NCBI RefSeq assembly: GCF_013283745.1
Contig: NZ_JABSTZ010000002.1
Span: forward strand, 620,001-684,000
Reading direction: 5' to 3'
DNA length: 64,000 bases
From: Aeromicrobium stalagmiti
Lineage (GTDB): Bacteria > Actinomycetota > Actinomycetes > Propionibacteriales > Nocardioidaceae
Below, piece by piece: positions 3,562-56,687 of the stretch. Below the pieces are notes generated by a model that ran no database searches, was not told the origin of the DNA, and worked only from the letters and a program-made list of their open reading frames with translations. The position numbers and the translations under genes are program-made. Numbering within the stretch: position 1 is the stretch's first letter; each line of letters starts with the position of its first letter.

Positions 3562-3576
3562 CGCAGCGGCGAGACG

Positions 3577-3668
3577 CGAAAGTGTGCGCGTCTGCACGAC
3601 TGGGGACTCCCCAGGCGTGCGGATGTGCACACTTTCGGGTTCGGGCGGGGCAGACGCGCACAGTTTCG
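3577..3668. repeat. Intergenic inverted repeat module, family 1, site A
   Basis: Three copies of one word lie between aspS and rarA: a plus copy at 3577-3598 (CGAAAGTGTGCGCGTCTGC...), a minus copy at 3616-3636 and another minus copy at 3652-3668 differing by one base over 17. Between the first two copies, CTGGGG/CCCCAG forms the tip, so 3577-3636 can fold into a long hairpin. The same word in the same order (plus, minus, minus) recurs at 11718-11814. It ends the aspS unit and the last copy runs up to the rarA promoter. It may act as a terminator or be a REP/MITE-like element; no open reading frame is inside. Confidence 0.8.
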
Positions 3669-5061: not shown

Positions 5062-5093
5062 CTCAACCCGTCCGCCGGCCCCCGCCCGCCCAG

Positions 5094-5171
5094 GGCGGTG
5101 CGTTGGCGTCCACGTCACGCGCGAACGTGGACGCCAGTGCACCGCCTCGGTGGGGCGGTGCGCTGGCGTCC
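5094..5171. repeat. Intergenic inverted repeat module, family 2
   Basis: A 22-bp word (GGCGGTGCGTTGGCGTCC plus ACGT) at 5094-5115 is followed by its inverted copy at 5125-5146 (20 of 22 positions match) with a 9-nt loop, and by a third, plus-strand copy at 5154-5171. The first two form a strong stem-loop just after the rarA stop. This is a different sequence family from sites 3577-3668 and 11718-11814 but with the same style of organisation. It could terminate rarA transcription. Confidence 0.8.
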
Positions 5172-5195
5172 GGTGGGCGGCGCGACTCCCCGCGA

Positions 5196-11717: not shown

Positions 11718-11814
11718 CCCCGAAAGTGTGCGATCCTGCACCGATCTCGCGGCCCGGACGGTGCACCTGCGCACAGTCCGTGGCGCCGATCGTGCAGACT
11801 CGCACACTTTCGGG
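11718..11814. repeat. Intergenic inverted repeat module, family 1, site B
   Basis: Same word as site 3577-3668. A plus copy at 11718-11746 (CCCCGAAAGTGTGCGA...) and a minus copy at 11788-11815 are near-perfect inverted repeats of about 28 bp; a degenerate minus copy (GTGCACCTGCGCACAGTCCG) is at 11761-11780. The plus/minus/minus order matches site A. The module sits after the peptidase gene and before aroC, at a transcription-unit boundary. The rest of the 199-bp gap contains only the aroC promoter region. Confidence 0.8.
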
Positions 11815-11892
11815 GAGGGGCTGGTGAGGAGGGGCCGGTGACGAGAGGTGTTCATCAGCCAGCCACGGTCCCGGGTGCCGCAGGGGGCGTGG

Positions 11893-48995: not shown

Positions 48996-50099
48996 ATGTC
49001 CGCGCCCAACTCCTCGTACGACCCGGTGGAGGTCACTCCTTTGCACGCCGATGAGGTCGAGCGCATGCGGGACGAGGCCCTGGCAGCGATCGCCGCCGCC
49101 GTCACGCTCGACGACCTCGCGCAGGTCCGCATCGACCACGTGGGCGACCGCTCACCGATCGCCCTGGCCAACCGCGAGATCGGCGCCCTGCCGCCGCAGG
49201 CTCGCAAGGAGGCGGGCCAGCGCGTGGGCCAGGCGCGTGGCGCCATCAACCAGGCCCTCGCTGCCCAGTCCGCCGAGGTCGAGGCGGCCGCCGAGGAGCA
49301 GGCGCTGGTGACCGAGGCCGTCGACGTCACGCTGCCGTGGGACGTCGCGCCCGTCGGAGCCCGGCACCCCGTCACCACGTTGTCGGAGCACATCGCCGAC
49401 GTGTTCGTCTCGATGGGCTGGGAGATCGCCGAGGGCCCCGAGGTCGAGGCCGAATGGCTCAACTTCGACGCGCTCAACCTGGGTCCGGACCACCCGGCCC
49501 GCACGATGCAGGACACGTTCTGGGTCACGCCCGAGAAGGCGGCCATGGTGCTGCGCACCCACACGTCGCCCGTGCAGGCGCGGACGATGCTCACCCGCAA
49601 GCCCCCGATCTACATCGCCTGCCCCGGTCGCGTGTTCCGCACCGACGAGCTCGACGCCACCCACTCGCCGGTCTTCCACCAGGTCGAGGGCCTCGCGATC
49701 GACGAGGGTCTGTCGATGGCCCACCTCAAGGGAACGCTCGACCACTTCGCCCAGGCGATCTACGGCGACGGCATGACGACGCGCTTTCGGCCGTCGTACT
49801 TCCCGTTCACCGAGCCGAGCGCCGAGATGGACCTGCTCTGCTACGTCTGCCACAACGAGCCCGACGCGGTCGCCGACTGCCGCACCTGCAAGGGCGAGGG
49901 CTGGGTCGAGTGGGGCGGGTGCGGCGTCGTCAACCCGCGCGTGCTGATCGCCTGCGGCGTCGACCCCGAGCGCTACTCGGGCTTCGCCTTCGGCATCGGC
50001 ATCGACCGCACCATCACGTCCCGCTACGACATCGCTGACCTGCGCGACCTGTTCGACGGCGACATCCGTTTCACCGAGCCCTTTGGAGTCGAGCTGTGA
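48996..50099 (+). CDS. pheS: Phenylalanyl-tRNA synthetase alpha subunit
   Basis: Catalytic subunit of the alpha2beta2 enzyme. 367 residues: N-terminal coiled-coil (about 1-95) that binds tRNA, then the class II core with HPVTTLSEHIADVFVSMGW, HTSPVQARTM (motif 2 region), FHQVEGLAID, and the motif 3 region FAFGIGIDRTITSRY. Stop overlaps pheT (GTGA). Confidence 0.96.
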   Translation: MSAPNSSYDPVEVTPLHADEVERMRDEALAAIAAAVTLDDLAQVRIDHVGDRSPIALANREIGALPPQARKEAGQRVGQARGAINQALAAQSAEVEAAAEEQALVTEAVDVTLPWDVAPVGARHPVTTLSEHIADVFVSMGWEIAEGPEVEAEWLNFDALNLGPDHPARTMQDTFWVTPEKAAMVLRTHTSPVQARTMLTRKPPIYIACPGRVFRTDELDATHSPVFHQVEGLAIDEGLSMAHLKGTLDHFAQAIYGDGMTTRFRPSYFPFTEPSAEMDLLCYVCHNEPDAVADCRTCKGEGWVEWGGCGVVNPRVLIACGVDPERYSGFAFGIGIDRTITSRYDIADLRDLFDGDIRFTEPFGVEL

Positions 50100-52627
50100 A
50101 GGTCCCTGTCACCTGGCTGCGTGAGTACGTCGACCTGCCAGAGGATCTCTCGACCGTCGACCTGGCTGGCCGCCTCACCGAGTTCGACCTCAAGCTCGAG
50201 GAGATCGCCTCGTCCGGCATCAGCGGCCCGCTGGTGGTCGGCCGCGTGCTCAGCCTCGTCAAGGAGGAGCAGAAGAACGGCAAGACGATCAACTGGTGCC
50301 GGGTCGACGTCGGCGCACACAACGACGCGTCCGTGCCCGACGCGCCGGGCGACGACGTGCCGTCGCGCGGCATCATCTGCGGCGCGCACAACTTCGTCGA
50401 GGGCGACCTCGTGGTCGTCTCCCTGCCCGGCACGGTGCTGCCGGCGCTGGCCCATGTCATCCCGGGTGGCGAGATCAGCGCGCGCAAGACCTACGGGCAC
50501 GTGTCGGACGGCATGATCTGCTCGTCCGCCGAGCTCGACCTGCCGGGCGACGCCAGCGGCATCATCGTCCTCGAGCCCGGTTCGGCCGAGCCGGGCGACG
50601 ACGCGATCGCGCTCCTGGGGCTGGGTGAGGAGGTTCTCGACCTCGAGGTCAACCCCGACCGCGCCTACGCGCTGTCGCTGCGCGGCGTGGCCCGTGACGC
50701 GGCGATCGCGACCGGCGCGCCGTTCCACGACCCGGCCGACCTCGAGGCGGTGACGGTCGCGACCGACGGTCCCGGCGCCTACCGTGTCGAGGTGCAGGAC
50801 CCGACCGCCTGCCCGGTCTTCGCTGCCCTGACCGTCACCGGCATCGATCCGACCCGCACCACGCCGGCATGGCTCGCGCAACGCATCGAGCTGGCGGGCA
50901 TGCGGTCGATCTCGCTGGCGGTCGACGTCACCAACTACGTCATGCTCGAGCTCGGCTTCCCGATCCACGGCTACGACCGCTCCCTGCTCAAGGGTCCGCT
51001 GGTCGTCCGTCGCGCGACTCCGGGGGAGCAGCTCACGACGCTCGACGGCACCACCCGCACGCTCACCGAGTCCGACACGCTCGTCACCGACGACCGTGGC
51101 CCGGTGGGGCTCGGCGGCATCATGGGCGGCGAGGAGGTCGAGATGACCCCGTCCACGACCGACGTCGTCGTCGAGGCCGCCGTCTGGTCCGCCCCGATGA
51201 TCGCGCGCACGGCCCGGACGCAGAAGCTGTCGTCCGAGGCCGCCAAGCGCAACGAGCGAGGGGTCGACCCCACGCTGCCGGCGCGGGCGGTCCGCCGCGT
51301 GGCCGACCTGCTCGTCGAGCACGGTGGGGGCACGCTCGAGGACGGTCTGACCCTGATCGGTGAGGCCCCGGTGCTGCCCGACGTGACGCTGCACGCCGAC
51401 CTGCCCGCCCGGGTCACCGGCGTCGACATCGACACCGTCGCGGCTGTGGAGGCCCTCGAGGCCAACGGCTGCGAGGTCGCGGTCGACCACACGTGGCTGA
51501 CGGTCACGCCGCCGCCGTGGCGTCCCGACCTCACCGACCCCTACGACATCGTCGAGGAGGTGCTGCGCGTCGTCGGCTACGACCAGGTGCCGTCGGTGCT
51601 GCCGACCGCCCCGGCCGGCCGCGGCCTCACGACCTCGCAGAAGCTGCGCCGCCGGGTCGGCAACGTCCTCGCGGGCGAGGGGCTCGTCGAGGTCAAGACG
51701 TTCCCGTTCGCCGGTGAGGCCGACTGGGACCGGATGGGCCTGCCCGCTGACGACGTCCGGCGCCGCCAGGTCATGCTCGAGAACCCGCTGTCGGCGGAGG
51801 ACCCGGGCATGACCACGACGCTGCTCTCGGGCCTGCTGCGCAGCCTCGTGCTCAACATCGGTCGCGGTCACAGCCACGTGCACATCACCGAGACCGGTCG
51901 CGTGTTCCTGCCCCAGGCTGGTGAGGCCGAGGCACCGATCTACGGAGTCGACCGTCGCCCGAGCGACGACGAGCTCGCGGCCCTCTCGGCTGCGCTGCCC
52001 GACCAGCCGTTCCACGTCGGCGTGGTCATGAGCGGCGAGCGGGTCCGTTCGGGCTGGGCCGGCAAGGGACGTCCGGTGCAGTGGGCCGACGCCATCGCGA
52101 TCGTCCGCCACCTCGCAGCGGTGCTGCACGTCGACCTCGAGGTGCGGCAGGCGCAGCAGGCACCCTGGCACCCCGGCCGCTGCGCGGCGTTCGTCCTCGA
52201 CGGTGCCGTGATCGGGCACGCCGGCGAGCTGCACCCGCGGGTGCTCAAGGCGTACGGGCTGCCCGCCCGGGTCGTCGCGGCCGAGGTCGATCTCGACGCG
52301 ATGATCGAGGCGTCACCGCAGATCGGTCCGCGGCCTGACTTCTCGACGTTCCCGGTGGCCAAGGAGGACCTCGCGCTCGTCGTCGACCTCACGGTGGCGG
52401 CGGGCGATCTCGAGGCGGCACTGGCCGGTTCCGGCCCGCTGGTCGAGTCGGCCCGACTCTTCGACGCCTACGTCGGCGAGCAGGTGCCCGAGGGCAAGAA
52501 GTCGTTGGCGTTCGCGCTGCGTCTGCGTGCCCCCGATCGCACGCTGACCGACGACGACATCAAGGCCGCTCGCGAGGCAGCGGTCGCAGCGGCCCACGAG
52601 GCCACCGGCGCCACCCTCCGCCACTGA
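50096..52627 (+). CDS. pheT: Phenylalanyl-tRNA synthetase beta subunit
   Basis: 843 residues from GTG 50096: N-terminal tRNA-binding (EMAP-like) domain around 40-150, B3/B4 editing domain (about 210-370), B5 DNA-binding-like domain (about 420-500), catalytic-like fold, and the C-terminal FDX-ACB anticodon domain (last 95 residues, FSTFPVAKEDLALVVD). Complete length, coupled to pheS by GTGA. Confidence 0.96.
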   Translation: MKVPVTWLREYVDLPEDLSTVDLAGRLTEFDLKLEEIASSGISGPLVVGRVLSLVKEEQKNGKTINWCRVDVGAHNDASVPDAPGDDVPSRGIICGAHNFVEGDLVVVSLPGTVLPALAHVIPGGEISARKTYGHVSDGMICSSAELDLPGDASGIIVLEPGSAEPGDDAIALLGLGEEVLDLEVNPDRAYALSLRGVARDAAIATGAPFHDPADLEAVTVATDGPGAYRVEVQDPTACPVFAALTVTGIDPTRTTPAWLAQRIELAGMRSISLAVDVTNYVMLELGFPIHGYDRSLLKGPLVVRRATPGEQLTTLDGTTRTLTESDTLVTDDRGPVGLGGIMGGEEVEMTPSTTDVVVEAAVWSAPMIARTARTQKLSSEAAKRNERGVDPTLPARAVRRVADLLVEHGGGTLEDGLTLIGEAPVLPDVTLHADLPARVTGVDIDTVAAVEALEANGCEVAVDHTWLTVTPPPWRPDLTDPYDIVEEVLRVVGYDQVPSVLPTAPAGRGLTTSQKLRRRVGNVLAGEGLVEVKTFPFAGEADWDRMGLPADDVRRRQVMLENPLSAEDPGMTTTLLSGLLRSLVLNIGRGHSHVHITETGRVFLPQAGEAEAPIYGVDRRPSDDELAALSAALPDQPFHVGVVMSGERVRSGWAGKGRPVQWADAIAIVRHLAAVLHVDLEVRQAQQAPWHPGRCAAFVLDGAVIGHAGELHPRVLKAYGLPARVVAAEVDLDAMIEASPQIGPRPDFSTFPVAKEDLALVVDLTVAAGDLEAALAGSGPLVESARLFDAYVGEQVPEGKKSLAFALRLRAPDRTLTDDDIKAAREAAVAAAHEATGATLRH

Positions 52628-52746
52628 CGCTGACGAGACCGTTACCGCCCCCTGACGAGACCGTTCCCGCCCCTTCGCGAGACCGTTGCCGCCCTGGATG
52701 GGGGCGACAAAGGTCTCCTCGAGGGGCCGGAAAGGTCTCGTCAGCG
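52628..52746. repeat. Intergenic repeat module, family 3, with 13-bp terminal inverted repeats
   Basis: Three tandem copies of TGACGAGACCGTT plus nCCGCCCC start at 52631, 52653 and 52675, an exact 22-bp period. Two inverted, less exact copies follow (52700-52722 and 52723-52743). The outer ends, CGCTGACGAGACC (52628-52640) and GGTCTCGTCAGCG (52734-52746), are perfect complements. It fills the 127-bp gap between convergent pheT and the LemA gene, so it may terminate both, or be a MITE-like insertion. No target duplication was seen. Confidence 0.85.
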
Positions 52747-52754
52747 TGTGGGGG

Positions 52755-53315
52755 TCAGAACTGGACGGCGGGGGGCGTCTCCTGGCCCTCCGGGGCGTTG
52801 TAGAACTCGCGGGCGTGGACGCCGGCGATGCCGGTGAACAGCAGCCACGGGATCGTGCGGACGATGCTGTTGAGCGACGCGACCGCGTCGTTGTAGTACT
52901 GGCGGGCGAACGAGATCTTGTCCTCGGTCTCGGCGAGCTCGGTCTGCAGCTGCAGGAACCCGGCGGACGCCTTGAGGTCGGGGTAGGCCTCGGCGACCGC
53001 GAGGACGTCGATGATGGCCTTGTCGAGGACCTGCTGAGCCTCGGCCTTCTCCGCGACGGTGCCGTCGGCAGCAGCAGACTTCGCGCCGGCACGCGCGGCC
53101 GTCACGGCCTCGAAGACGCCCTTCTCGTGCTGGGCGTAGCCCTTGACGGTGTTGACCAGGTTGGGGATCAGGTCGGCGCGCCGGGTCAGCTGGACGTCGA
53201 TGCCGCCCAGCGCCTCCTGCGCCCCGATGTCGAGGCGGCGCAGCTTGTTGAAGGCGTAGGCAGTGAACAGCAGCAGCACGACGATGATGCCGATGATGGT
53301 CAGAAGGACGGCCAT
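52755..53315 (-). CDS. LemA family membrane protein
   Basis: 186 residues. One N-terminal membrane helix (about 3-20, VLLTIIGIIVVLLLFTAYAF), then the LemA helical domain: FNKLRRLDIGAQEALGGIDVQLTRRADLIPNLVNTVKGYAQHE and ETEDKISFARQYYNDAVASLNS. Family function is not settled. It is translated after the DUF2207 gene (37-bp gap, AAGGAGA before the ATG), a pairing seen in many bacteria, which points to a joint envelope function. Confidence 0.92.
   Translation of the reverse strand: MAVLLTIIGIIVVLLLFTAYAFNKLRRLDIGAQEALGGIDVQLTRRADLIPNLVNTVKGYAQHEKGVFEAVTAARAGAKSAAADGTVAEKAEAQQVLDKAIIDVLAVAEAYPDLKASAGFLQLQTELAETEDKISFARQYYNDAVASLNSIVRTIPWLLFTGIAGVHAREFYNAPEGQETPPAVQF

Positions 53316-53352: not shown

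Positions 53353-56687
<3,335 letters not shown>

Follow-up and report, generated by a model that had tools for sequence, protein, structure and literature searches.

The array between pheT and lemA

We analysed a stretch of DNA of 64,000 nucleotides (the window) and, in it, a short cassette lying between the convergent genes pheT and lemA. The pheT stop is at 52627 and the lemA stop codon begins at 52755, so that the cassette takes up 119 of the 127 nt of the convergent gap. The features of the locus are the following:

50096-52627, plus strand: pheT, left convergent neighbour (Pfam PF17759, PF03483, PF03147), the anchor of the orthologous gap in relatives
52628-52746, no strand: solo repeat array of five 22-bp units oriented towards a short centre, with ends CGCTGACGAGA / TCTCGTCAGCG
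52628-52640, plus strand: left 13-bp terminal inverted repeat
52630-52651, plus strand: unit 1, word GAGACCGTT
52652-52673, plus strand: unit 2, word GAGACCGTT, 95% identity to unit 1
52674-52695, plus strand: unit 3, word GAGACCGTT, 77% identity to unit 1
52701-52720, minus strand: inverted unit, word GAGACCTTT
52723-52742, minus strand: inverted unit, word GAGACCTTT
52734-52746, minus strand: right 13-bp terminal inverted repeat
52755-53315, minus strand: lemA, right convergent neighbour (Pfam PF04011)

The original prediction described a 119-bp cassette between two convergent genes, with three direct copies of exact period, two inverted copies and matching ends, and all of this was confirmed: the direct units keep an exact period of 22 over 52630-52695, the inverted units occupy 52701-52742, the ends CGCTGACGAGACC...GGTCTCGTCAGCG form a perfect 13-bp inverted repeat, and the Pfam matches support both gene names. 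The predicted RNA fold of the cassette was strong (-71.3 kcal/mol, z -6.4). No T-tract intrinsic terminator was found at 52400-53000, and Rfam returned nothing for the cassette region except a sub-threshold CRISPR-repeat match located outside the element. On the far side of lemA, the protein at 53353-55161 has a glycine-rich C-terminus that is encoded by short-period CCG-rich tandem repeats (53363-53419).

Dispersed copies in the genome

A whole-genome blastn search of the study genome (G000, genus Aeromicrobium, 3.68 Mb; other genomes are labelled G0xx and fetched loci L0xx) with the 119-bp cassette gave 47 matches that collapsed to 22 places, i.e., about 22 copies. The word GACGAGACCNTT occurred 34 times and the unit GAGANNNTTNNNGCCCC 81 times in the genome versus 0 for the reversed controls, and the repetition of the cassette is thus far beyond chance. 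The 22 copies (L009-L030, the X1 locus described below being counted as two, L029 and L021) showed common ends near CGCTGACGAGA/TCTCGTCAGCG and units of the form GAGA-NNN-TT-NNN-GCCCC. In the 102 units read, the middle triplet was CCG, CCC, CCT, GCG or GGG, with few others, and because of this variation the two arms do not form a perfect palindrome. A minimal copy consisting of a single unit in each arm was found at C1:840675 (L217).

According to gene calls made with a home-made codon-usage caller, 12 of the copies had convergent, nine tandem and one divergent neighbours, and 18 of the 22 started at most 8 bp from the 3' end of a plus-strand gene. The neighbour genes scanned around the elements were functionally unrelated. 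When 17 elements were compared, 24 pairs were more than 80% identical, the best match being in the same orientation in nine, in the reverse orientation in nine and about equal in six. A target duplication of at least 4 bp was present in none of the 18 elements (out of 22) with both ends recognised. Agreement between arms at variable sites, calculated for 18 elements, was 0.423 in the outer register versus 0.517 in shuffled arms, and 0.527 versus 0.529 in the inner register, i.e., no difference. Selection for perfect arm pairing is therefore unsupported, the outer register being below the shuffled value and the inner one no higher.

A gene enclosed by one copy of the array

At C12:610829-611977 three plus and three minus units lie about 1 kb apart, and the sole gene between them, named X1 (C12:610899-611906, outside the window; 336 aa), splits one array copy at its centre. 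Its outer neighbours are a RelA/SpoT gene and an OpgC-like gene. X1 matched the Pfam winged-helix family AbiEi_4 (E 2.4e-7) and, weakly, the nuclease family MTES_1575 (E 0.015); it is predicted to combine a DNA-binding winged helix of AbiEi type with an endonuclease of PD-(D/E)XK type. A gene for a predicted enzyme with the ends of the cassette thus exists, one arm on each side, but it does not encode the transposase that had been envisaged.

The likeness to a MITE seen by the original prediction stands insofar as the cassette is short, extragenic and dispersed and has inverted ends. A classical MITE, derived from a DDE transposon that shares its ends, is nevertheless an insufficient explanation, since target duplications of at least 4 bp were absent from all 18 elements, and X1, the one gene seen between arms among the places of the whole-genome blastn search, has its matches in AbiEi and nuclease families and not in a transposase. 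Array sites are, in addition, common to species with other words (see below), and we consider this origin hardly credible.

Five more X-like genes were found in G000, six in all. One of them, X6, gave no Pfam match at 0.001 and was assigned through its 34% identity to X2. Inspected by eye, all six lie between inverted copies of their own word, as listed here for the five besides X1:

L069: X-like gene, flanking word GATTTCGGCACTTATGGGTG
L070: X3, flanking word GAAAGTGTGCG..CTGCAC
L071: X4, terminal inverted repeat of ~40 bp and word CGTCCTCCCGGGGGA
L072: X-like gene, flanking word GAGGTGGATCCGCAACCTC
L208: X-like gene, flanking word CGAGTGGCGCA

The terminal inverted repeats of X4 (L071:2676-3995) are nearly identical and lie outside its word array, which makes this locus more transposon-like than the other X loci.

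The window itself holds two arrays of the same kind of element with another partner, X3:

3574-3668, no strand: solo array of the X3 word GAAAGTGTGCG...CTGCAC
11718-11815, no strand: second solo array of the X3 word

A third array-like palindrome at 5082-5175 carries GGCGGTGCGTTGGCGTCC in one inverted and one direct copy, with no partner recognised among the six X genes.

To score the association of X genes with flanking inverted repeats, we took the 350 bp to the left and to the right of each gene and searched for the best inverted repeat between the two; the threshold (15.5) was the maximum of our own 77 control genes and was chosen after the controls were seen. Thirty of 34 X loci exceeded 15.5 and hence all 77 controls (medians 33.5 versus 10.5), the failures being L086, L087, L096 and L102. 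Every one of the six G000 genes was above all controls, X6 with a score of 46.5. Of the 117 genomes of the order, 101 had an X homolog, and in an order-wide set, which has 4 of its 30 places in common with the 34 loci and reuses the same controls, 26 of the 30 fetched X loci passed (14 of 17 outside the genus). L168, L175, L177 and L180 failed, and L163 and L176 barely passed.

Conserved features of the X proteins

In 32 X proteins, residues E218, D250 and E261 were invariant and D263 nearly so; these conserved residues are of PD-(D/E)XK type and would form the active site. Pfam matches at E up to 0.01 fell into six families, among them MTES_1575 in 18 proteins, DUF559 in 13 and AbiEi_4 in nine, with no Y1 transposase family in these matches, and the AbiEi models of PADLOC matched all 32. 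To our knowledge, X-type proteins have no assigned role.

These matches allow a defence or toxin-like reading: an AbiEi-type protein with a nuclease, silenced by titration on the arrays, which would act as decoys or self-marks, and set free when foreign DNA is to be attacked. PADLOC, MTES_1575 and DUF559 assignments all agree with it, but a fixed locus with a single gene for each word is not what mobile defence islands look like, and X1 had no relatives in phage and viral collections and five weak, partial matches in plasmids. We regard such a function as improbable.

Word and protein across relatives

Orthologs or cousins of X1 were read in 18 relatives (38-79% identical). The same RelA/SpoT gene adjoined X1 in 13 of them, whereas none of the 18 loci had the gene that lies on the other side in G000. 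The flanking words differed by species: 12 distinct words, assigned by eye, were counted in the 18 genomes. The word GACGCGTGGGTT flanks X1 in G013, G035, G034, G008 and G065, which had 43, 103, 29, 13 and 103 copies, respectively, versus 0-3 copies in 44 other genomes. The G003 word GGGGYACTTNNNGCCC had 69 copies in its own genome and 0-2 in 48 others, and GCGAGAGASTTTGTT, the X1-flank word of G033, G002 and G004, had 23, 19 and 40 copies in these, 21 in G031 and 0 in 45 others. G031 counts against the pairing, as the word is present and an X1-like gene was not found in this draft (84% complete). The G000 unit pattern was present 81 times in G000, 10 in G069 (whose X1 flank carries a word similar to that of G000), 6 in G003, 5 in G062 and 0-2 in the other 45; G003 is thus not fully homogeneous, because the G000 pattern also matches there. 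The genomes are related and these counts are therefore not independent. In this comparison the word of the dispersed arrays changes between species together with the word around X1, and the link between protein and repeat is strong.

The pheT-lemA gap was measurable in 17 of 22 fetched genomes, arrays being judged by eye. An array was present in eight of nine genomes with X1 or a cousin and in none of eight without either (one-sided hypergeometric probability 9/24310, relatedness ignored). G026 counts against this association, having an X1 cousin and no array in the gap. The gap word was the X1-flank word in six of the eight genomes; the exceptions, G024 and G015, also count against. In the G024 gap (L042) the word GGGTCACTT matches neither the X1-flank word nor those of the four other X genes of that genome, and it is perhaps an older word whose replacement is pending. 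The G035 gap (L050) holds a giant palindrome of 481 bp with roughly 20 units and a fold of -337.5 kcal/mol. Across relatives, the gap does not keep the identical layout, without mobility, that would have spoken against the original prediction, as other words, plain hairpins or nothing at all are found there.

The original prediction had also considered a bidirectional terminator. An ordinary bidirectional intrinsic terminator or an mRNA-end hairpin with no link to a protein would fit the position between convergent stop codons, the convergent neighbours of 12 of the 22 elements and the fold of the cassette (z -6.4), and simple hairpins do lie in the gap of the X1-less relatives G063, G010 and G028. 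However, the T-tract is missing, arm pairing within elements is not favoured, and one and the same word recurs dozens of times and agrees with the one on the flanks of the X gene. A side function at transcript ends is possible; as a full explanation a plain terminator is contradicted by the match between word and protein and seems very improbable to us. Neither the MITE nor the terminator reading explains why the word follows the protein across species.

Of 56 windows of 15 residues scanned across 18 X1-type proteins, the one that best tracked the distance between words, once the distance between whole proteins was allowed for, was residues 46-60 (partial r 0.43, n=18; max-statistic P 0.0048), the part of the winged helix in which the recognition helix is predicted. 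After thinning to one genome per word (n=12), r for residues 46-60 was 0.31, behind residues 121-135 (0.43) and 66-80 (0.38). Because the signal drops on thinning, the helix is likely, but not proven, to be the specificity determinant.

Orthologous sites with different words

Leaving aside pheT-lemA, we took 20 loci with GACGCGTGGGTT from among the matches listed for G034, G008 and G065, 19 of them arrays elsewhere than at the X1 locus. Twelve of these 19 have the same pair of neighbour genes as a G000 array, and one more matches on one side. In G003, which has the closest X1, 20 arrays were fetched: four matched a G000 site on both sides and one on one side, and 15 had no match. Eight stray single-word loci (in G005, G006, G021, G023, G026 and G036) did not match any G000 site. 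These matches and mismatches mean that many arrays persist while the word differs, and that many other sites are unshared.

Shared sites would also be expected if X1 were a domesticated sequence-specific regulator and the arrays its operator or roadblock sites at gene ends, serving transcription end, separation of convergent genes or chromosome organisation; the host function would then force site and protein to co-evolve with no copying drive. This reading is in keeping with the RelA/SpoT gene that adjoins X1 in 13 of the 18 relatives, with a single gene for each word, with the start of 18 of 22 elements within 8 bp of a plus-strand gene 3' end, with the 12 convergent pairs, with the sites common to several species and with the strong fold. 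It accounts less well for copy number, which lies anywhere between 13 and 103 in the five genomes that have a word in common, and for orientation, near-identical elements occurring in both. Moreover, the scanned neighbours are functionally unrelated, 15 of 20 G003 arrays match no G000 site, and the conserved nuclease residues would need another reason. We therefore hold a purely regulatory role to be a serious but rather unlikely alternative.

Proposed mechanism

We favour, with a probability of roughly 0.55, the reading that the cassette is a solo array of the repeat family cognate to X1, in a partnership that resembles REP/RAYT but is built on an unrelated nuclease, and whose arrays are rewritten in concert. 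Cutting and copying by X1 are our inference from the sequences. The winged helix of X1 would bind the 22-bp unit and its nuclease would nick or cut DNA at arrays; repair would then copy the whole array from another site, overwriting the element, and copying could take place in either orientation because the ends are symmetric. By such a homing-like or REP/RAYT-like process arrays would spread to new gene ends and be rewritten in concert. Inserts are probably tolerated at gene 3' ends, above all between convergent pairs, where the arrays may also help to end or protect transcripts. A nick or break followed by whole-element repair would account for the similarity of elements in both orientations, the mosaic of units, the shared sites and the concerted turnover of words. 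It counts against this mechanism that a freely cutting nuclease would be toxic to its own genome, which has 80-odd units; the genome could survive if X1 nicked only folded or single strands, were under tight control, or if the units were protected.

If each X protein is the partner of a repeat family, many hypothetical proteins and intergenic palindromes gain one joint explanation. The pairs of protein and word would be a natural series in which to study how the DNA target of a winged helix can change, and the arrays a test case for concerted evolution of dispersed sites in bacteria.

Relation to known systems

The nuclease domain of the X proteins resembles Vsr-like (DUF559) homing endonucleases: the profile match to 3r3p, a 'mobile intron protein', was weak (E 0.013), DUF559 was matched by 13 of the 32 proteins, and the PD-(D/E)XK-type residues are conserved. 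These endonucleases, including 3r3p, we take to be of the EDxHD class. X1 differs from them in that its neighbours give no sign of an intron or intein around it, and in having an N-terminal part of AbiEi type together with a dispersed family of repeats. That N-terminal part is similar to AbiEi antitoxins (AbiEi_4 in 9/32, PADLOC in 32/32), from which it differs in being fused to a nuclease-like domain.

In the REP/REPIN-RAYT system the repeats are extragenic, inverted and dispersed, the enzyme gene is single-copy and flanked by its own repeat, several enzyme-repeat pairs can exist per genome, and co-evolution has been proposed (PMC3116915, PMC3733652). In the same respects the X system is alike: the partner gene is flanked by its own repeat, there are several pairs per genome, and the repeats are dispersed, inverted and extragenic. 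It differs in having an AbiEi winged helix and a PD-(D/E)XK enzyme in place of a Y1 tyrosine transposase (TnpA-REP), in arrays of tandem units (22 bp in G000) where a REP, tagged with GTAG or CGTC, is one hairpin of 20-40 bp, and in that many arrays share an orthologous site between species whose words differ. The cassette ends CGTCAGCG contain CGTC and in this resemble, by eye, the CGTC-tagged REPs, which the source describes as palindromic, located in gaps at gene ends and without a dedicated transposase; their stems of 8-9 bp and loops of 4-5 nt are unlike the X arrays (PMC3733652). The word 'actinobacteria' is absent from the main text of that paper. Among the literature matches listed, judged by title and the start of the abstract, no description of a nuclease-repeat pairing was found. 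That the word differs between species and matches the one flanking a predicted nuclease suggests a partnership of nuclease and repeat that is undescribed and common among these soil bacteria.

A DnaA-box-like motif upstream of X genes

A motif noticed by eye before counting, TCCACAG/CTGTGGA, was present 5' of the X gene in 52 of 61 X loci and in 8 of 151 control genes; downstream of the X genes it was found in none of the 61 loci. Its core TCCACA is the core of the actinobacterial DnaA box TTGTCCACA, as given in PMC4285127, and the motif may tie X expression to replication.

A wider reading, which we put forward tentatively and as possible rather than probable, is that actinobacterial genomes carry several single chromosomal nucleases of this type (AbiEi winged helix plus PD-(D/E)XK), each maintaining its own tandem-inverted words at gene ends and overwriting them as its DNA specificity shifts. 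The sites would stay while their sequence is replaced in concert, the DnaA-box-like site 5' of the gene would couple rewriting to replication, and the whole would be an undescribed kind of element, a bacterial counterpart of the self-reinforcing turnover of specificity that is known from homing drives or recombination hotspots. In X1 orthologs the motif lies close to the start used here, in L029 it is found upstream of X1, and in about a dozen loci two copies are placed some 28-30 bp apart.
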